This document shows positions 23,988 to 39,650 of a stretch of DNA of 64,000 bases, piece by piece; position 1 is the first letter of the stretch; every line of letters begins with the position of its first letter. The position numbers were made by a program, and so were the translations under genes. The DNA lies in assembly GCF_024582835.1 (NCBI RefSeq), contig NZ_CP102096.1, forward strand, positions 2,356,001 through 2,420,000. The letters are read 5' to 3'. Under the pieces are notes generated by a model that did not search any database, had not been told where the DNA came from, and worked only from the letters and a program-made list of their open reading frames with translations. The DNA is from Vibrio japonicus. GTDB taxonomy: Bacteria; Pseudomonadota; Gammaproteobacteria; Enterobacterales; Vibrionaceae.

Positions 23988-24063
23988 GGCCCCTTAGCTC
24001 AGTGGTTAGAGCAGTCGACTCATAATCGATTGGTCCCCAGTTCAAGTCTGGGAGGGGCCACCA
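23988..24063 (+). tRNA. ileX: tRNA-Ile (anticodon CAU, lysidine type), host of the element
   Basis: 76-nt cloverleaf starting GGCCCCTTAGCTCAG and ending in encoded CCA. The anticodon loop CTCATAA has CAU. The acceptor stem GGCCCCT/AGGGGCC and anticodon arm resemble E. coli ileX, which also lies near rpoD, so I call it the Ile2 tRNA modified to lysidine at C34; automated tools often label this gene tRNA-Met. Its 3' part (from 24018) is the left attachment site of the integrated element, and integration has restored a complete tRNA with a replaced 3' half. Confidence 0.93.
24018..24063 (+). repeat. attL: 3' half of tRNA-Ile(CAU)
   Basis: 46-bp direct repeat shared with 39605-39650. Identical from ACTCATAATCGATTGGTCC and through the acceptor 3' strand, with two differences that fall on partner positions of the T stem (CCAG...CTGG here, GCAG...CTGC at the far end). 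Confidence 0.92.
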
Positions 24064-24161
24064 TTCAAATCAAGCACTTATCGCTTACCCTTCTTTGAAT
24101 GTTGCCTTTTATTCCGTCCCGAGGTACAAAATCAGTACAGTACGCATTCGGGAGTACTCAC

Positions 24162-25253
24162 ATGGCAACTTTAGTTAAAACTTCTTCAGGTACCTGGAAA
24201 GCCGTTATTCGAAAAACCGGCTGGCCGACGACGTCTAAAACTTTTCGTCTCAAACGCGATGCCGAGGATTGGGCAAGACGCACCGAAGATGAAATTGTGC
24301 GTGGCGTGTATATCAAACGTTCCTCATCTGAACGACTCACCATTGAAGAAGCGTTAAAACGCTACCTGGCAGAAATCTCACCGACCAAACGACCGGCGAC
24401 CGCTGCCTGTGACGCGAGACATTCCAAACCGATTATCAAAGCCCTGGGAAAATACTCCCTGGCTGCCCTGACTCCCGAAATCATTGCCAAGTATCGAGAC
24501 GACCGATTAGCTGGCCTGGACCGTTGCGACGCCAGAGGTAACCCGGCACCCAAACCACGCTCACCTAATACCGTGCGCATTGACCTGGCCCTGCTCAGTC
24601 ACCTGTACAATATTGCGATTAAAGAATGGGGTATCGGCCTGGCAATTAACCCGGTCCAGAACATTCGTAAGCCCTCCCCACCTTCTGGCCGGGAACGACG
24701 CTTGACCGAGGAAGAAGAGATACAGCTCCTGGAAGCCGTTGAGGCGCACACTAATCCGATGCTGGCTTGGATTGTTCGTATCGCACTGGAAACCGGTATG
24801 CGTTCCTCTGAAATCACTTCTCTGCGCCGCTCTCAGGTTGATTTGAAAAAGCGTGTGGTTTTCCTGGTCGAAACCAAAAACACCATGCCGAGAACCGTTC
24901 CGCTTTCTCTCCTGGCGTTAGAATCCTTTAAGCAGGCGATTAATAATCCGGTACGGCCCATTGATACCGATCTGATTTTCTTTGGCGAACCAGGCAAAGA
25001 CGGCAAGCGACGCCCGTACAACTTCAACAAAGTGTGGATGAAGATCAAAGCCAAGATTGGCCTGAAGGATTTTAAATTCCACGACCTGCGCCACGAGAGC
25101 GTCAGCCGCTTAGTTGAAGGCGGGCTAAGTGATCAGCAAGTCGCCGCCATCAGCGGCCACAAATCAATGCAGATGCTGCGCCGCTACACGCACCTCAGAG
25201 CCGAAGACCTGGTTGAAGAACTGGACGCGATTGCCAAAGGGAAAAAGGCTTAG
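24162..25253 (+). CDS. int: Tyrosine site-specific integrase
   Basis: Catalyses integration and excision at the tRNA attachment site. An N-terminal SAM-like core-binding region (about residues 60-170) precedes the catalytic domain with Arg in GMRSSEITSLRRSQ, HDLRH, GHKSMQMLRRYTHL carrying the H and nucleophile Tyr. 363 aa is typical. The ATG at 24162 (MATLVKTSSG) is preceded by GGGAG; the frame is open further upstream towards the tRNA but without support. It lies 98 bases inside attL, the normal place for such an integrase, and reads away from the tRNA. Confidence 0.95.
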   Translation: MATLVKTSSGTWKAVIRKTGWPTTSKTFRLKRDAEDWARRTEDEIVRGVYIKRSSSERLTIEEALKRYLAEISPTKRPATAACDARHSKPIIKALGKYSLAALTPEIIAKYRDDRLAGLDRCDARGNPAPKPRSPNTVRIDLALLSHLYNIAIKEWGIGLAINPVQNIRKPSPPSGRERRLTEEEEIQLLEAVEAHTNPMLAWIVRIALETGMRSSEITSLRRSQVDLKKRVVFLVETKNTMPRTVPLSLLALESFKQAINNPVRPIDTDLIFFGEPGKDGKRRPYNFNKVWMKIKAKIGLKDFKFHDLRHESVSRLVEGGLSDQQVAAISGHKSMQMLRRYTHLRAEDLVEELDAIAKGKKA

Positions 25254-25261
25254 CCAACACC

Positions 25262-25351
25262 GCCCCTCAAGTGTCAATGAAATGGGGATGAGCCCGGTGT
25301 AACCTGGCTGTCCTCCAATGGATGAGGCTGGTTTATTGACCTTGGGGGGTA
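25262..25351. repeat. Boundary unit 1L: inverted 17-bp arms, 56-bp spacer
   Basis: Begins GCCCCTCAAGTGTCAAT (25262-25278) and ends with a degenerate inverted copy, ATTGACCTTGGGGGG, from 25335. Its outer arm is the exact reverse complement of 28759-28775. It starts eight bases after the integrase stop. Confidence 0.75.
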
Positions 25352-25463
25352 ATTCATAGTGATTAGTATCGATACAATCTTTGAATAGCTGGGTAGTCGA
25401 ACACCCGCGATAACGATTTATTCGATCAGATAAGAAAAAGTATCTTGAAACCTTAAACGCTTC

Positions 25464-25946
25464 TTATAAGGTCAATAGTGCTAGGATTAGCCCACCAACC
25501 ACAGTACCGATAACTGCAACTACCGTTTGACTAAACATAGGACTGCCAACTAGCTTTTTAACCGATGAAGTTTCTTGAGCTTCACCTGCTGCCGAAGTTA
25601 AAAAATGGTCAGTAACATCATTACCACAATCTTTAATTTCAGTATCTTCATATCCATATCCGGGACTGATAAGTACAATCGGACTTCCATCATTAAAGTT
25701 ATCAATTTCTTTACGGCTGCGCTCCTGAAGTTTCTGAAGCTCTGTTTTATGAGAGAACCGTGTAGATATAACTCGAATGCTTTTCAACGAATGCGTTTCA
25801 ATTACAGAACCAGACACCAATAATCTGGCACCCTTTTTATAAGGAAAAACAAACTTGGCAAACAGTTCAGGCTCGGTGAGATCTTTGAACAAACAAATCC
25901 ATGAATCACTGTCTTTTTCTTTGATTAAAACGTGATAATTACTCAT
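25464..25946 (-). CDS. Tail-anchored protein of cargo module 1, unknown function
   Basis: 160 aa from the ATG at 25946 (MSNYHVLIKEKDSDSW); the frame stays open upstream but the earlier part reads like non-coding sequence. The body is a mixed alpha/beta, hydrophilic domain containing ARLLVSGSVIE and GSPIVLISPGYGYEDTEIKD. The last 25 residues form one clear membrane helix (SQTVVAVIGTVVGGLILALL), so the bulk should face the cytoplasm as a tail-anchored protein. I do not recognise the family. It is the last gene of the nuclease, PRTase, NADAR string, 125 bases after the NADAR stop. A membrane-anchored partner of a soluble conflict module is a reasonable but unproven guess. Confidence 0.7.
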   Translation of the reverse strand: MSNYHVLIKEKDSDSWICLFKDLTEPELFAKFVFPYKKGARLLVSGSVIETHSLKSIRVISTRFSHKTELQKLQERSRKEIDNFNDGSPIVLISPGYGYEDTEIKDCGNDVTDHFLTSAAGEAQETSSVKKLVGSPMFSQTVVAVIGTVVGGLILALLTL

Positions 25947-26071
25947 TAATTCATTTAACCTTATACATGTAGCCCTGTTAAGATGTAAGCTAAGCAACGC
26001 AATACCGAAGCCGCCGCCTACTACCTTAAACACTAAATGCAACGCGTTGAGAATCACTCTTAAACAGTTTG

Positions 26072-26698
26072 TTAAACGTCAAACATGTTAATTTGTGGAG
26101 TGGCTAAAATACGAGAGTCCGATTTATTTACTGGCAAAATATCTTGATTGTAGAGTTTAAATTGAGGAATATTTAATGGAGGGACAACCATAAAGCGCTC
26201 TTTTTTATTATGTATAACTTGTTCTCGAAGTTCCATCAACAATCGCCCTAGCGCATTTACACCAACATATAAGTTTTGCTCCACAGGTTTTGCCCCCCAG
26301 AAGTCATCCTTATTCGAAATCTCAACAATTTGCATATCCTGCGTACTCAGGAGGAGTGACGAAAACTCATCCCAATTTTGAGCTAACTTTACTCTTAAAC
26401 ACCACTTCATGACTAAAATTCTAACAGCTAGCCAGTCGTCTCTTGAATGCTCTCTAAATGGTTTACCTACCATTTTCGCTGTCATAGGACTCCCTTGTGT
26501 TAGGATTTTTTCTTGTACGTCAGGCAGATGTGGAAAACGACAAGCTTGGTATAGTGCTTCCACACTTTTAATTGCCACGCAATTTACAACAACAGGAAAA
26601 CCGCCCGCCATATTTGACAAACCACCCCACTGTTCGGTGGTTTTCTTAAATGCAGCTGCATTTCTTATGTCATATTGCTTTTTTTCATGTTGTTTCAT
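26072..26698 (-). CDS. NADAR-family protein (YbiA-like)
   Basis: 208 aa from the ATG at 26698 (MKQHEKKQYD). The NADAR fold (NAD and ADP-ribose superfamily) is recognised by WGGLSNMAGGFPVVVNC, KSVEALYQACRFP and DDFWGAKP. Family members include YbiA/RibX N-glycosidases acting on riboflavin intermediates, and proteins that remove ADP-ribose from guanine in DarT-NADAR pairs. No DarT is nearby. It starts four bases after the stop of the PRTase-like gene, so the two are almost surely co-translated. The extra C-terminal 60 residues beyond the NADAR core have no family I recognise. Confidence 0.85.
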   Translation of the reverse strand: MKQHEKKQYDIRNAAAFKKTTEQWGGLSNMAGGFPVVVNCVAIKSVEALYQACRFPHLPDVQEKILTQGSPMTAKMVGKPFREHSRDDWLAVRILVMKWCLRVKLAQNWDEFSSLLLSTQDMQIVEISNKDDFWGAKPVEQNLYVGVNALGRLLMELREQVIHNKKERFMVVPPLNIPQFKLYNQDILPVNKSDSRILATPQINMFDV

Positions 26699-26702
26699 AA
26701 TA

Positions 26703-27710
26703 CTAGCCGTATGTTTTCCTTTGTAATAAAGGATACCACTTACCAAACGGATGTGCCGTAGAGTAACTAGGGTCACCCCACCAAAACGCTAATGGGTTGT
26801 TATTTGGACAGTTTCGGAAGCTAAAAACCGTAGATCCAAAGCCAAAACCATCAAAACGATTGTAGCCCAATGGCTTAACCACTTTATTTGGAGATTGACA
26901 GTAGCCTAATATTTGTAAGCCCGCTTTGGTAATCGCCAACTCATATTGAGTTCTGCGCTTGCGAGAGAACACTTTGTTTTTGAGATCATTCTGAACTCTA
27001 AACGTTGGCTCTCGTTCCTGTCCGGCAATGTACTCACGGGCTTCTGGAATTTCCATTACAACTTCTTCTGGCCAGAATACATGAGATTTATCTTTATAGG
27101 ACAATCGATTTTCTAGGCGAAAATCCTCGATTGACCAGTATTTGAATGTAATGTTCTTTCCGTAAGCTTCTGCTAACTTTGGCAATGTTCGCTGTACGTA
27201 CCAAATGCCACTTTGATACCACCCCATAAGGACCACACTCATATGACAATTTTGAGGGGCATCGTTAATAATCCATTGTCGAAGATCAGACACTAGGCGA
27301 TTCCCCGAAAATAAGAAATCATCTAAATATATATAGTGCTCTGAATGGCTATTTACCTTTGGCTGCAATCCGTACTTATCTTGAACATGTTGACGTACTA
27401 AAGAGACTAATTCAGTCTGGCTATTACCATTTAACTGAACATCACAAAGAGACGCCTTTGACCAAAAGTCTGCTTGGTCCTCTGTAGAAAATTTCGGAGA
27501 TGTAATTAATGAAGAGATAAACTTTGAGAATTCTTCTTTTGTAATATATGTACGCTTTAGAATTCTATTGGTCTCGGCCAAAACAACTTCACGATCAACC
27601 TCATCAAACTGTTCAATCCATCTTCGAACATGAGCTTCATCTAATCGACCAAACTCTCCATCCGCATAATCTACTATTATACTTGATATACTACTGATCA
27701 AATCTTCCAC
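26703..27710 (-). CDS. Phosphoribosyltransferase-like protein (PRTase-CE type)
   Basis: 335 aa from a GTG at 27710 that has AAGGA seven bases upstream; an upstream TTG at 27743 lacks a ribosome-binding site. A helical N-terminal region (about 1-110; RRWIEQFDEVDREVVLAETN) precedes an alpha/beta domain with IYLDDFLFSGNRLVSDLRQW, which looks like the PRPP-binding loop of type I phosphoribosyltransferases, followed by MSVVLMGWYQSG. This arrangement matches the PRTase-CE domain described in bacterial conflict systems. The C-terminus (FGFGSTVFSFRNCPNNNPLAFWW) is conserved-looking and rich in aromatic residues. Coupled to the NADAR gene. Role inferred: a nucleotide-processing effector. Confidence 0.72.
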   Translation of the reverse strand: MEDLISSISSIIVDYADGEFGRLDEAHVRRWIEQFDEVDREVVLAETNRILKRTYITKEEFSKFISSLITSPKFSTEDQADFWSKASLCDVQLNGNSQTELVSLVRQHVQDKYGLQPKVNSHSEHYIYLDDFLFSGNRLVSDLRQWIINDAPQNCHMSVVLMGWYQSGIWYVQRTLPKLAEAYGKNITFKYWSIEDFRLENRLSYKDKSHVFWPEEVVMEIPEAREYIAGQEREPTFRVQNDLKNKVFSRKRRTQYELAITKAGLQILGYCQSPNKVVKPLGYNRFDGFGFGSTVFSFRNCPNNNPLAFWWGDPSYSTAHPFGKWYPLLQRKTYG

Positions 27711-27831
27711 GATCCTATCCTTATCAATAATTACAAAACTCAATTTTGACGTTTAATGTCTTGCTAAGAGGCTATATTTAGCGAAGAATGAGCGCAAGCC
27801 GAGCTTTTTGCGTCCTTTCTTGAGCAACTTG

Positions 27832-28368
27832 CTATAAGCCAAAATTACCATCAAACTCTGAAACCAAGCGTCCATTTTGAAACTGCTGTACAGAGTAATA
27901 GTTATTATCTTTATCTAGCTCGATGAAATAACCAACTTCATAACCGCAAACATGCTCGGGGTGAGTTTGCCCATCAAAAGACCAAACATCATCAAAACTA
28001 GCTTTTGTTAAAGTACGTAAACGTGCTCTATCACTAACTTTTTCTTCTTCGGGCCTCTCGGTCTTTTTCATTTCAATAGCGATTAAATTGTCTCTTGCCA
28101 TTACTTCACCACGACTATGCAGGATTAAATCACAAGTAATGTTTATAACTTTCATATCATCATCCAGCATGGTTTTAACTCTACCATTTTGCTTTCGGTT
28201 GTATTCGGTATCAGCGTAATAGGCTGACAAGCCATTTTGGTGAGCTATGGCTTCGAGAGGAATTGCGAGCCTAGAGCAAAGATTTCTTTCACTAACGCCA
28301 CTTAGGATATTTTGCGCTTCTCTTTGGAAAAACTGGGCTAGACTTTGTTCGAAGATTTGAGTTAACAC
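27832..28368 (-). CDS. PD-(D/E)XK-like nuclease fold protein
   Basis: 178 aa from a GTG at 28368 with a perfect AGGAGG six bases upstream; an in-frame start further up has no such site. The order ERNLCSRLAIPLE, a turn, INITCDLILHSRGE and NLIAIEMKK fits the E...D...ExK catalytic string of restriction-like nucleases. It is first in the minus-strand cargo module, 121 bases before the PRTase-like gene. No specificity or methylase partner is present, so this is not a standard restriction system. The fold call is by motif pattern only. Confidence 0.62.
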   Translation of the reverse strand: MLTQIFEQSLAQFFQREAQNILSGVSERNLCSRLAIPLEAIAHQNGLSAYYADTEYNRKQNGRVKTMLDDDMKVINITCDLILHSRGEVMARDNLIAIEMKKTERPEEEKVSDRARLRTLTKASFDDVWSFDGQTHPEHVCGYEVGYFIELDKDNNYYSVQQFQNGRLVSEFDGNFGL

Positions 28369-28397
28369 TCGATGCCTCCTTGGCTTATAACAGTATC

Positions 28398-28685: not shown

Positions 28686-28775
28686 GCCCCTCATATGTCA
28701 ATAACTCCACCAGAGCCACAGTAATACACTTCTCTAATATCTTCATAAACTCACATATATTGACACTTGAGGGGC
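28686..28775. repeat. Boundary unit 1R: inverted 17-bp arms, 56-bp spacer
   Basis: GCCCCTCATATGTCAAT (28686-28702) and ATTGACACTTGAGGGGC (28759-28775) are inverted copies with two mismatches, again 56 bp apart. The right arm is a perfect inverted match of the outer arm of unit 1L. Confidence 0.78.
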
Positions 28776-36546: not shown

Positions 36547-37314
36547 TTAGTGTTCTTCGATTCTTTTAAATTCAAACTGAACTTTAGATACCTCATGGAT
36601 TTGACAACCTAAAACCTCTGCTGAAGCGAGATCAAAAAGAACTATATTATGTCCATCAGCTAACGAGCTTTTATATGCAATACCATCATAACCCCTAGAT
36701 TTTACAAACTCTGATATGATTTGTGTTGCTGCATAATCTGATGTGGAATCTGAATTTCTTACCGGTTTAGAAAATGCATTATCAATATCCGACCAAACTG
36801 CTTTTTTCTTCTCTTCTTCGCTCGGTTCATTGAAGTAAAAAAGAAAATTAGTATTGCTAACGCCATGTTCAACGGAAAAGTCTAATATTTTTAAATCTTT
36901 TGTTGTTTTAAATACCCCTAGCGAAACTATAGCACCGAGCCAAGGCCTTATTTCTGACATAGCTGTTTCTTTATTAGTTGCCACGTAAAGGCAAGGTATT
37001 CCTTTGGAGTTCGCTCGTCCTTCTGAAGCACTATCCTCTAGAGGTTTCATTCTTGAATGAGGGAAAGGAATAGGTACATCGTCCACGTGCACTTGTTCGT
37101 CAGTTTCTGGGTCAGTTTGATACATTGGTCTCCATGCATGCCCATTTTGCGCACGCCACACCGTAGCACCTTTAGGTATCGATAATTCCCGCTCTTGGCA
37201 CGTTTCGATAATTGCATTGAGAAAACGTTGAGATTCTTCGTCAAGAATATATCTCTGTTTCCGATTAACCGCCCAACTAAATGTAAAGAAACTTCGCCAA
37301 GAATTAAAACTCAT
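36547..37314 (-). CDS. RES-domain protein (NAD-consuming toxin family)
   Basis: 255 aa from the ATG at 37314 (MSFNSWRSFF). The three RES signature residues appear in order: Arg in GATVWRAQNG, Glu in NKETAMSEIRPW and Ser in GIAYKSSLADG, with SDYAATQIISEFVKSRGYDG between. RES proteins degrade NAD+ or ADP-ribosylate targets and usually pair with an Xre-family antitoxin encoded just upstream; none is here. The reading frame upstream of the ATG runs into an attC-like site, giving the RALCVTKAYT string common at the front of Vibrio cassette ORFs. So it looks like a captured superintegron cassette. Confidence 0.82.
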   Translation of the reverse strand: MSFNSWRSFFTFSWAVNRKQRYILDEESQRFLNAIIETCQERELSIPKGATVWRAQNGHAWRPMYQTDPETDEQVHVDDVPIPFPHSRMKPLEDSASEGRANSKGIPCLYVATNKETAMSEIRPWLGAIVSLGVFKTTKDLKILDFSVEHGVSNTNFLFYFNEPSEEEKKKAVWSDIDNAFSKPVRNSDSTSDYAATQIISEFVKSRGYDGIAYKSSLADGHNIVLFDLASAEVLGCQIHEVSKVQFEFKRIEEH

Positions 37315-37335
37315 CGTATACGCTTTAGTTACACA

Positions 37336-37433
37336 TAACGCCCGCCTCAACTGCCGGAAGACACAAGCGCCTTTTGTGCGTTTTTTGCACAAAAGGAGAC
37401 AGTGGCTGGAGGTCAGATTGTAGGCGCTTGTTA
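37336..37433 (-). repeat. attC: Integron attC-like recombination site
   Basis: On the minus strand it starts TAACAAGCGCC (37433-37423), directly after the stop of the 119-aa gene, and ends GGCGGGCGTTA (37346-37336), just before the RES gene. The ends pair with each other as attC R boxes do, and the centre is a perfect 10-bp hairpin CCTTTTGTGC / GCACAAAAGG. Size (98 bp), end sequences and position between two ORFs fit a Vibrio superintegron (VCR-like) site. Confidence 0.78.
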
Positions 37434-37445
37434 TATTTTTTCTCG

Positions 37446-37805
37446 TTACCCAAGGCTAAAATGGGTTGTATTATGATCTAAAAGTAAAGCAAGTAACTTC
37501 ACTAAGACTTGCGGATTATTAGTTTCATTAGAAAGTTCAACTTTTGAGCTTTCTTCAGGTTCTTTTGAAAGCTTATAGCATTCATCAGAAAGGATATTGC
37601 TAATTTCCTTTGCAAACAGATACTTTATATTTCCTAATTCATACCGCTCGATTTCACAGCCTTCGTCGGAGTGCCCCTCTGGAAATGTTGATTGAACCAC
37701 ATCCATTTTCTCAAGCGACTTTAACCTTACAATTTTTCCAGATAAATGGCGACCAACTTTAACTGTTCCAAGTTGCTCCCATTCATTAAAAAAGTCAAAA
37801 TCCAT
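37446..37805 (-). CDS. Acidic small protein of the AAA+ operon, unknown
   Basis: 119 aa from the ATG at 37805 (MDFDFFNEWEQLGTV), one base after the stop of the preceding gene. The N-terminal part looks like a small beta domain (GTVKVGRHLSGKIVRLKSLEK); the C-terminus is Ser/Glu-rich then helical (PQVLVKLLALLLDHN). No family recognised. Last of a four-gene string and immediately followed by the attC-like site, so it is the gene that the cassette end belongs to. Confidence 0.6.
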   Translation of the reverse strand: MDFDFFNEWEQLGTVKVGRHLSGKIVRLKSLEKMDVVQSTFPEGHSDEGCEIERYELGNIKYLFAKEISNILSDECYKLSKEPEESSKVELSNETNNPQVLVKLLALLLDHNTTHFSLG

Positions 37806-37806
37806 G

Positions 37807-38031
37807 CTATTCAGCCCCCTCTGATTCAGAACCTTCGGACTCGAGATCTGTAGGTTCAACGTTTTCTCTATACCACACTCCTGCGTCATCAAATACCGAT
37901 TTCGCGTTATCTGATATTTTCCCTCCGGAAATAACTCCCTTTACCCCTTGCTCTACAATTTTCTTCGCTTTACCAGGGTAAATTCCGCTGGAATATACTT
38001 TAACCTCAATGTAATCGTCATCACTTGGCAA
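37807..38031 (-). CDS. Small acidic-tailed protein of the AAA+ operon, unknown
   Basis: 74 aa from a TTG at 38031 with AGAGGTG six bases upstream, one base after the stop of the previous gene; an alternative TTG at 38076 would give 89 aa and overlap that gene by 44 bases. Sequence EVKVYSSGIYPGKAKKIVEQ then a tail of Glu and Ser. No family recognised. Spacing (stop, one base, start) is the same as for the next gene. Confidence 0.55.
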   Translation of the reverse strand: MPSDDDYIEVKVYSSGIYPGKAKKIVEQGVKGVISGGKISDNAKSVFDDAGVWYRENVEPTDLESEGSESEGAE

Positions 38032-38032
38032 T

Positions 38033-38257
38033 TTATTCACCTCTTTTAGCCTGATTTTTATCAATTGTTTCACCAAGCAGCTTTAAAAATGCCTTAGTAT
38101 CCTTGGCTATAACTTTCACATCACCTTTAGGATCATTACCTTCTGTAGGAGATACATCCAAGCCATTGGCTTTACCTAACTTTACAGCATTATCAACCAT
38201 ATCTTCATGCTTAATGTAGGATTCAATTGCTTTCCTTCCGGAACTTTTTTTACCCAT
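38033..38257 (-). CDS. Small basic protein of the AAA+ operon, unknown
   Basis: 74 aa, lysine-rich (MGKKSSGRKAIESYIKHEDM), probably helical. Its ATG overlaps the TAA of the ATPase gene (TAATG), so the two are translationally coupled. No family recognised; size and coupling suggest a substrate, adaptor or regulator of the ATPase. Confidence 0.6.
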   Translation of the reverse strand: MGKKSSGRKAIESYIKHEDMVDNAVKLGKANGLDVSPTEGNDPKGDVKVIAKDTKAFLKLLGETIDKNQAKRGE

Positions 38258-39114
38258 TAGTCTTCCTTGTTTAGCGAAGAAAAAGACTTTCTTTGCTGTT
38301 CAAATGTAGAGCTAGAAGACTCCGTGCTCCGTAAACCTTCTAGAACATCTTTTTCACAAAAACGATTACCTATGAGATCTTGTAAAAAAAACCTTTGCAT
38401 AACCAAAATTAAATCATTTGGCGTTAGCGTGTTTTCATGCACTAGCGACTCAACCTCTTGGAAGTCAATAGTTAACTCTTTGGAAATAATATCTAGCATT
38501 GGACTAATTAGAGCTTCTATTTCCTTAGCATTCAATACTGGGTTCACCTCAACTTTTAAAGAGAAACGCCTTTTAACCGCTGAATCCAAATGTGAAAGCA
38601 TGTTAGTTGTAGCTGCTATTATGGGCATAAAGTCATAAGACTCTAATAAAAGCTCATCTAATTGGGAAAGAAACGTATTTACACCTCGTCTAACCCCCGA
38701 AGATTCATTACTTAAGTACCTAGAAGACAGGAGCGAGTCAACATCATCTATCTGTAAGAACACCTTTTTACCACAAGAGGCTTGCTCTTTAAGTTCATCA
38801 AACAAGCTTTTAATCGCTTTAGATGTTTCACCTAGATCTTTGTTAACAAGAAGGTCTAAGCTTTCTCGGTAATATTTAGAGGAATTTGCTTCCAACTCAG
38901 CTGCCAGATTTGATAACAATGTAGTTTTGCCTGTCCCCGGAGGACCATATAGTAAAATGGTTGGCATGAAATGAAGGGCTTTTGATTGCTCTGACCACTT
39001 ATCTGACCACACGAACTTACAAAATGCGTCGACTAATCTTTCTTGTTGCTCAAGCCCAATAAGTTCTTGATGACCATGATCAGCAATGATCTTTTTTTCG
39101 CCAAATAAATGCAC
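38257..39114 (-). CDS. AAA+ ATPase of cargo module 2
   Basis: 285 aa from the third GTG (39114), which has AGAAGG seven bases upstream. Walker A GPPGTGKTT at about residue 58, Walker B VFLQIDDVDS, sensor 1 AATTN and an Arg-finger region AVKRRFSLKV make a complete classical AAA+ module; C-terminal helices form the lid. It resembles single-module remodelling ATPases of the spastin/katanin-like arrangement. No protease, nuclease or membrane domain is attached. First gene of a four-gene minus-strand operon. Confidence 0.85.
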   Translation of the reverse strand: MHLFGEKKIIADHGHQELIGLEQQERLVDAFCKFVWSDKWSEQSKALHFMPTILLYGPPGTGKTTLLSNLAAELEANSSKYYRESLDLLVNKDLGETSKAIKSLFDELKEQASCGKKVFLQIDDVDSLLSSRYLSNESSGVRRGVNTFLSQLDELLLESYDFMPIIAATTNMLSHLDSAVKRRFSLKVEVNPVLNAKEIEALISPMLDIISKELTIDFQEVESLVHENTLTPNDLILVMQRFFLQDLIGNRFCEKDVLEGLRSTESSSSTFEQQRKSFSSLNKED

Positions 39115-39143
39115 TACCACACCTTCTTGAAATATAACAGCCT

Positions 39144-39604: not shown

Positions 39605-39650
39605 ACTCATAATCGATTGGTCCGCAGTTCAAGTCTGCGAGGGGCCACCA
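39605..39650 (+). repeat. attR: displaced 3' half of the original tRNA
   Basis: 46-bp copy of the tRNA 3' end, ACTCATAATC to the CCA. It lacks the 5' half, so it is not a functional tRNA. It differs from attL at the two T-stem partner positions. Confidence 0.92.

Follow-up and report, generated by a model that had tools for sequence, protein, structure and literature searches.

Integron cassettes carry defence systems. NADAR proteins cleave ADP-ribose from guanine in DNA (PMC11543638, PMC11125620), phosphoribosyltransferases (PRTases) are effectors of type III-A retrons (PMC12548924), and NADAR and PRTase are both among the domains of 42 validated systems named in the form 'DS-n' (PMC13092281). 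In a stretch of 64,000 nucleotides from Vibrio japonicus (contig NZ_CP102096.1, positions 2,356,001 to 2,420,000 of the forward strand; the whole stretch is called the window), genes for a PRTase and a NADAR protein lie side by side between a gene for a PD-(D/E)XK-type protein and one for an orphan protein. These genes, called D, C, B and A in their order on the minus strand, were taken in a first-pass annotation for one undescribed system of four parts. They are read here, with a probability of roughly 0.8 to 0.85, as three integron-type cassettes in a row (D; C-B; A) inside an integrated mobilisable element, C-B being the anti-phage pair DS-32 and D and A mere neighbours. The part most worth following is that the PRTase–NADAR pair is joined, in other genomes, to restriction systems of type I and to Hma systems.

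The PRTase–NADAR pair and its co-occurrence

The pair consists of two genes:
26703..27743, minus strand: gene C, PRTase-CE protein, DS32_1 (PF24390, 166.5 bits; NF053875, 367.7 bits, cut-off 250)
26072..26698, minus strand: gene B, NADAR protein of 208 amino acids, DS32_2 (PF08719, 87.9 bits; NF053876, 281.8 bits, cut-off 240)

The genes adjoin, four bases apart and with the PRTase gene first, and both proteins exceed the cut-offs of the NCBIfam anti-phage models DS32_1 and DS32_2. By these matches the pair is assigned to DS-32, which already has a name, and an anti-phage role in this genome is predicted by kinship; the view that the system is undescribed could not be kept. We infer from the NCBIfam names that the DS-32 of PMC13092281 is this pair; the main text of that paper goes without the string 'DS-32'. 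The longest frame of gene C encodes 346 amino acids, and the GTG at 27710 is the likelier start, judged from an annotated relative in locus L002 (loci are designated by L numbers and genomes by G numbers). The structure model of its protein (pLDDT 94.1) finds its fold matches among nucleotide-salvage PRTases and PyrR, and a type I PRTase core with a phosphoribosyl pyrophosphate (PRPP) loop is predicted. The loop motif Y.DD..F[ST]G is present in 116 of 116 gene C sequences and RNCPNN.P in 115 of them, and residues E47, W89, E126, W134 and G135 of gene B are retained in all 116 sequences compared. The conservation of these active-site motifs suggests that genes C and B encode two working enzymes.

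The association of the two genes was surveyed in 120 PRTase loci, of which 113 came from scans and seven from records and related genomes. The scans, each seeded with a pair of short peptide patterns, supplied the 80 best of the 163 PRTase relatives confirmed in genomes and all 33 in viral contigs. The set includes three pairs of identical or nearly identical loci (L007/L031, L008/L032, L011/L012), and many loci are ended by contig edges. Gene B follows gene C in 119 of the 120 loci, and the exception, L061, ends at a contig edge 96 bases beyond the match. Neither gene D nor gene A occurs in any of the 120. Among 196 related genomes, the PRTase exceeds its cut-off in four (the present genome, G013, G074 and G190) and gene D is found in two (the present genome and G011), while gene A is found in two of 227 genomes (the present one and G257); outside the present genome, the carriers of the PRTase, gene D and gene A all differ. 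A conserved third partner was looked for in the 80 loci without an HsdS or HmaB fusion and rejected, since among frames of at least 130 amino acids nothing recurs there except prophage backbone genes and, in five loci, an integrase.

Cassette-type borders in a tRNA-Met element

The borders of the C-B cassette are marked by the following sites:
25972..26077, minus strand: attC at the end of the PRTase–NADAR cassette, with a damaged terminal R' box (54 superintegron matches at E<=1e-3; common to L002 up to 25972)
26071..26083, minus strand: right terminal repeat of the same cassette, TTTGACGTTTAAC, which holds the R'' box
27745..27757, minus strand: left terminal repeat of the same cassette, ATTAAACGTCAAA, whose R' box has A in place of G (27756 is where homology to L002 and L025 sets in)
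27751..27837, minus strand: attC-like site, decayed, between genes D and C (one superintegron attC matches over 46 nucleotides at 78%, E 7e-4)

The genome of V. japonicus encodes one integron integrase above the family cut-off (C2:1009528-1010475), beside which lies a superintegron with many attC sites. When about 115 kilobases (kb) of this superintegron were compared with the cargo by BLAST, 55 matches at E<=1e-3 were obtained, 54 of them on the junction between genes B and A and one on that between D and C; a looser search (E<=1) found 88 attC-like places in the superintegron. The 54 matches and the sequence shared with L002 indicate an attC after the last gene of the C-B cassette. The window shares DNA with L002, a V. 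algicola plasmid, from 27756 to 25972 (93.5% identity) and with L025, from Pseudoalteromonas, from 27756 to 26069 (94.4% identity); each shared stretch sets out from an R' box and stops at the R'' box or where attC ends. In L002 the same pair and attC are followed by a gene for a GNAT acetyltransferase in place of gene A, and in the closest relatives (96% identical protein) the pair is present beside differing neighbours. Matched R' and R'' boxes were found in six of the ten loci of the clade of the PRTase tree to which the window belongs, versus none of 102 others (rates in shuffled sequences, 0.002 and 0.001). For this count the box patterns were loosened to admit the damaged box of the window, and L026, with another change, was still missed; with undamaged boxes only, the count in the clade is four of ten (L002, L025, L029 and L030 are intact). 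The site between D and C agrees at 32 of 39 bases with the sequence that precedes the same cassette in L027, as high a match being reached in none of 1000 simple shuffles, and the score of 43 with this flank compares with 14 to 18 for five other flanks.

Some features of these borders count against the assignment to cassettes. Before gene C the R' box (ATTAAAC) deviates at one base, and that at the end of attC is lost, so that intact complementary R' and R'' boxes for the pair were not found in the window. Neither junction folds better as single-stranded DNA than do shuffled sequences (z of -0.84 and +0.85), and the repeats at the cassette ends are short for D (12 of 13 bases) and A (10 of 11 bases). 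Given the damage to the R' box at either junction, excision of the cassettes today is doubtful. With no folding signal in addition, they are called integron-type cassettes that may no longer move.

The claim that the four proteins work as one system gains from their arrangement, in that the genes adjoin on the same strand within 3 kb, and the frames themselves are confirmed. It is very improbable in view of the survey, where no PRTase locus of the 120 holds D or A and the parts occur in different related genomes, of the cassette-type borders between the parts, and of the closest relatives, which carry the pair beside other genes. A four-gene operon was rejected on the co-occurrence and the borders. 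The first-pass annotation had itself named the failure of these genes to co-occur elsewhere as the outcome that would refute its system, and for the nuclease and the tail-anchored gene this is the outcome obtained. For the window, the main worth of the result is to correct a reading: an array of cassettes may pass for an operon, and attC-type borders reveal three independent neighbours.

The outer cassettes comprise the following:
27832..28368, minus strand: gene D, PD-(D/E)XK-fold protein of 178 amino acids, in a separate cassette
28380..28392, minus strand: probable left border of the cassette with gene D (complementary to 27830-27842 at 12 of 13 bases; weak on its own)
25464..25946, minus strand: gene A, orphan protein of 160 amino acids with one C-terminal hydrophobic stretch, in a separate cassette (length taken from two homologues)
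25424..25476, minus strand: probable remnant of the attC of the gene A (tail-anchored) cassette (48-nucleotide, 85% match to an attC-like stretch of another cassette in L002)

Pfam scans gave no match for the protein of gene D or that of gene A. In the former, the residues D80, E99 and K101 do not vary across 50 homologues and form a D...ExK motif, and the best fold matches of its structure model (pLDDT 87.6, pTM 0.86) are restriction-endonuclease folds. By this motif and the modelled fold it is predicted to be a PD-(D/E)XK protein, in agreement with the first-pass annotation. The protein search listed 1400 relatives of gene D, most of those shown being unnamed; a match is found in four of 369 genomes of the class, the present one included, and in viral contigs at one locus from 32 candidates. 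Gene A has just two homologues in the protein search, one of them named from Vibrio parahaemolyticus.

The array lies in an element of 15.6 kb inserted in a tRNA-Met gene of Vibrio and bounded by a direct repeat of 46 nucleotides:
24018..24063, plus strand: left attachment repeat, in the 3' part of tRNA-Met (23988-24063, ARAGORN), in 46-nucleotide direct repeat with 39605-39650
39605..39650, plus strand: right attachment repeat, 46-nucleotide direct repeat
24099..25253, plus strand: tyrosine integrase of the element (PF00589, 112.6 bits)

A location of the four genes in a mobile element had been proposed and is borne out; the proposal that they form one cargo module is not, as they fall into three cassettes. 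In the element the Pfam scan further identified a NikA-like protein, a relaxase, TrbL, a RES-domain gene and an AAA ATPase. The element backbone starts at about 25423, where homology to the element of a relative with the same integrase ends. A perfect inverted repeat of 17 nucleotides (25262-25278 and 28759-28775, with a third copy at 28686-28702) surrounds the cassette array, and in a relative's genome, where this integrase stands next to different cargo, that cargo too is enclosed by similar paired repeats (L146, 3359/3431 and 16476/16548). A reading of the repeat as the transposon ends of the cargo was dropped: since the unit recurs in the relative around different cargo, it belongs to the element, where it possibly borders a cargo slot. 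The RES-domain gene, of a family of NAD-related toxins, and the AAA ATPase gene lie at 36547-37392 and 38257-39120 of the same element, and the small gene beside the former (37446-37892), without a Pfam match, could encode a RES antitoxin.

NADAR fusions in restriction-type systems

In other genomes the NADAR protein is often joined to a subunit of a restriction-type system. Its C-terminal continuation was classified in 115 loci, a count that leaves out L007, L008, L012 and loci without a complete gene B frame: 28 continue into HsdS, seven into HmaB (DUF1156 methylase), two into a helix-hairpin-helix (HHH) domain and three into unassigned sequence, while 75 are short. These types were confirmed with Pfam and PADLOC profiles in one locus each (L037, L042 and L083). 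NADAR forms the N-terminal half of the HsdS fusion, and the PRTase gene is directly upstream in the hsd operon. In L037 (3890-14137) the order is HsdM, GmrSD, PRTase, NADAR::HsdS and HsdR; in L042 (3736-16205) it is HmaA, a small gene, PRTase, NADAR::DUF1156/HmaB and HmaC. The PRTase gene is likewise just upstream in the Hma-type fused loci (L042, L059, L038, L039, L064, L086 and L103). HsdR accompanies the HsdS fusion in 28 of 28 loci, HsdM in 27 (the other locus starts inside the PRTase gene) and GmrSD in 12, while the HmaB fusion is accompanied by HmaA in all seven and by HmaC in six (the other being cut off). Where found in fused loci, HsdM, GmrSD and HmaA are encoded upstream; HsdR and HmaC are encoded downstream, and all share one strand. 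A second HsdS or HmaB was seen in none of the 35 fused loci (28 HsdS, seven HmaB). NADAR is therefore joined to the only HsdS or HmaB found in such a locus, which places it on DNA, and the fusions to HsdS and a DNA methylase suggest that the PRTase–NADAR pair acts on DNA. The HHH fusions are those of L083 (6478-9952) and L087, in Chloroflexota, and the gene upstream of the PRTase gene in L083 encodes a radical SAM protein with HHH motifs.

In a PRTase tree of 114 gene C rows (108 different), for which a long-branch warning applies, both fusion labels are scattered, with seven changes for HsdS (at least six on well-supported branches) and five for HmaB (at least four), each figure counting gains and losses together, the two being indistinguishable. 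The ten members of the window's clade all have short NADARs, and the link to DNA holds for the window by kinship only, since its clade is without a DNA-recognition part. An account of NADAR–HsdS or NADAR–HmaB fusions was not found in the literature, judged partly by title, with supplements, preprints and subscription papers outside the search. In 35 of 115 relatives, then, a validated anti-phage pair is built into the subunit by which a restriction-type system recognises DNA. These fusions make the action of the pair on phage a direct question, namely whether ribosyl adducts arise on DNA, at or off HsdS sites.

Possible mechanisms and comparison with known systems

As the fusions to HsdS and HmaB place NADAR on DNA, our favoured guess, held tentatively, is that the PRTase writes and NADAR erases a ribosyl-type base adduct on DNA. 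The PRTase would use PRPP to attach a ribosyl-phosphate group to a DNA base, most likely guanine; the adduct would stall phage replication, as does ADP-ribose from DarT, and NADAR would spare the host by cleaving the N-glycosidic bond of the adduct. With NADAR as the front half of HsdS or of the DUF1156 methylase, erasure would be directed to sites defined by their sequence. We infer each chemical step, the substrate and which of the proteins is the toxin. In a bolder version, which we consider unlikely, the pair would be a transferable module that writes and erases a new mark on DNA, in which the PRTase puts a phosphoribosyl rather than an ADP-ribosyl group on a base and NADAR removes it. If this is true, the site of erasure in the HsdS and DUF1156 fusions would separate self from non-self, and restriction systems would employ ribosylation beside methylation. 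Several observations speak against the favoured reading. DNA-recognition parts are missing from 75 of the 115 NADARs, the window's clade included, and the PRTase profile, run as a sequence search against solved structures, found just an EF-hand protein (E 0.0079) and PyrR (0.94). At position 54 of gene B, the place of the catalytic lysine of NADARs, arginine stands in 115 of 116 sequences. Lysine is counted among the catalytic residues (PMC11543638), and its place and that of the aspartate in this family were set by spacing and by alignment with YbiA. The exchange may mean that the adduct is other than ADP-ribose or that the enzyme is weaker, the known hydrolase activity being changed or removed.

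It is also conceivable, and on the whole somewhat improbable, that the target of the pair is not DNA but free nucleotides or PRPP, so that on sensing phage a nucleotide pool is depleted or spoiled and the cell stopped; the HsdS-fused pair would then stand guard over the restriction complex and signal when something is wrong with it. PrrC, a guard of a restriction complex, provides the model. Classical PRTases act on free bases and PRPP, the best folds of the gene C model are those of nucleotide-salvage PRTases and PyrR, and the absence of a DNA-recognition part from 75 of 115 loci fits such a role, as does the match of gene C to the PRTase_III-A models of PADLOC, PRTases being the effectors of type III-A retrons (PMC12548924). 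The fusion partner, however, is the only HsdS (28 of 28) or HmaB (7 of 7) found, so that NADAR would be in the DNA-bound complex itself. A further proposal gives the effector role to NADAR, which as an N-glycosidase would destroy a nucleotide, a NAD-related signal or a DNA base, with the PRTase as a non-catalytic regulator of the PyrR kind. Several fold matches of gene C are indeed PyrR and the active-site glutamates of NADAR are invariant, but the acidic pair of the PRPP loop is invariant as well (116 of 116 gene C sequences), as expected if PRPP chemistry matters, and this proposal appears quite unlikely. PyrR also retains a PRPP-type loop.

Among described systems, DarT1–NADAR has in common with the writing and erasing of a DNA adduct the idea of a base-modifying transferase with a NADAR partner. 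Membership of that system was rejected. The Pfam scan found no ADP-ribosyltransferase among the four window proteins, consistent with the first-pass statement that DarT is absent, and the NADAR family of the window has the YbiA-type glutamate (E126) in 116 of 116 members instead of the aspartate of DarT1 partners, and arginine for the catalytic lysine in 115 (PMC11543638). The PRTase assignment, for which Pfam and the fold matches of the gene C model agree with the earlier annotation as Pfam does for NADAR, leads also to type III-A retrons, since gene C matches the PADLOC PRTase_III-A models (E 3.4e-9). In the window the partner of the PRTase is NADAR, whereas that of the retron is a winged-helix protein; among the element proteins scanned with Pfam there was no reverse transcriptase, and retron membership was rejected as none stands beside the PRTase. 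A literature search for 'PRTase-CE' found nothing.

Type I restriction and Hma systems with a built-in PRTase–NADAR pair share the families of the window, with scores above the DS-32 cut-offs in both loci scanned (L037 and L042). They differ in that NADAR is fused to HsdS or HmaB beside HsdM and HsdR or HmaA and HmaC, an arrangement seen in other genomes and not in the window. A further comparison is with DS-32 in E. coli. The whole cargo searched as DNA against E. coli gave no direct match; a relative from Klebsiella led to a related NADAR stretch in 62 of 5426 E. coli genomes, and in the two examined a lambdoid prophage carries the genes for PRTase and NADAR as a pair, with replication gene P on one side and ninE on the other. 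One E. coli annotation (PGAP) names the pair anti-phage, and its proteins pass the DS32 cut-offs (310.9 and 259.8 bits). The same prophage (L012:1-1300) holds genes for a HipA kinase and a DUF3037 protein, domains also tied to defence (PMC13092281, PMC12548924). The pair of the window has the two genes, the gene order and the curated scores of DS-32, and differs in setting, as the E. coli copy is a two-gene cargo of a lambdoid prophage and that of the window occupies an integron-type cassette. With Vibrio integron defence cassettes, finally, the window shares a defence pair in cassette form with a Vibrio-type attC, whereas its array resides in a tRNA-Met element, on a replicon contig other than that of the superintegron.

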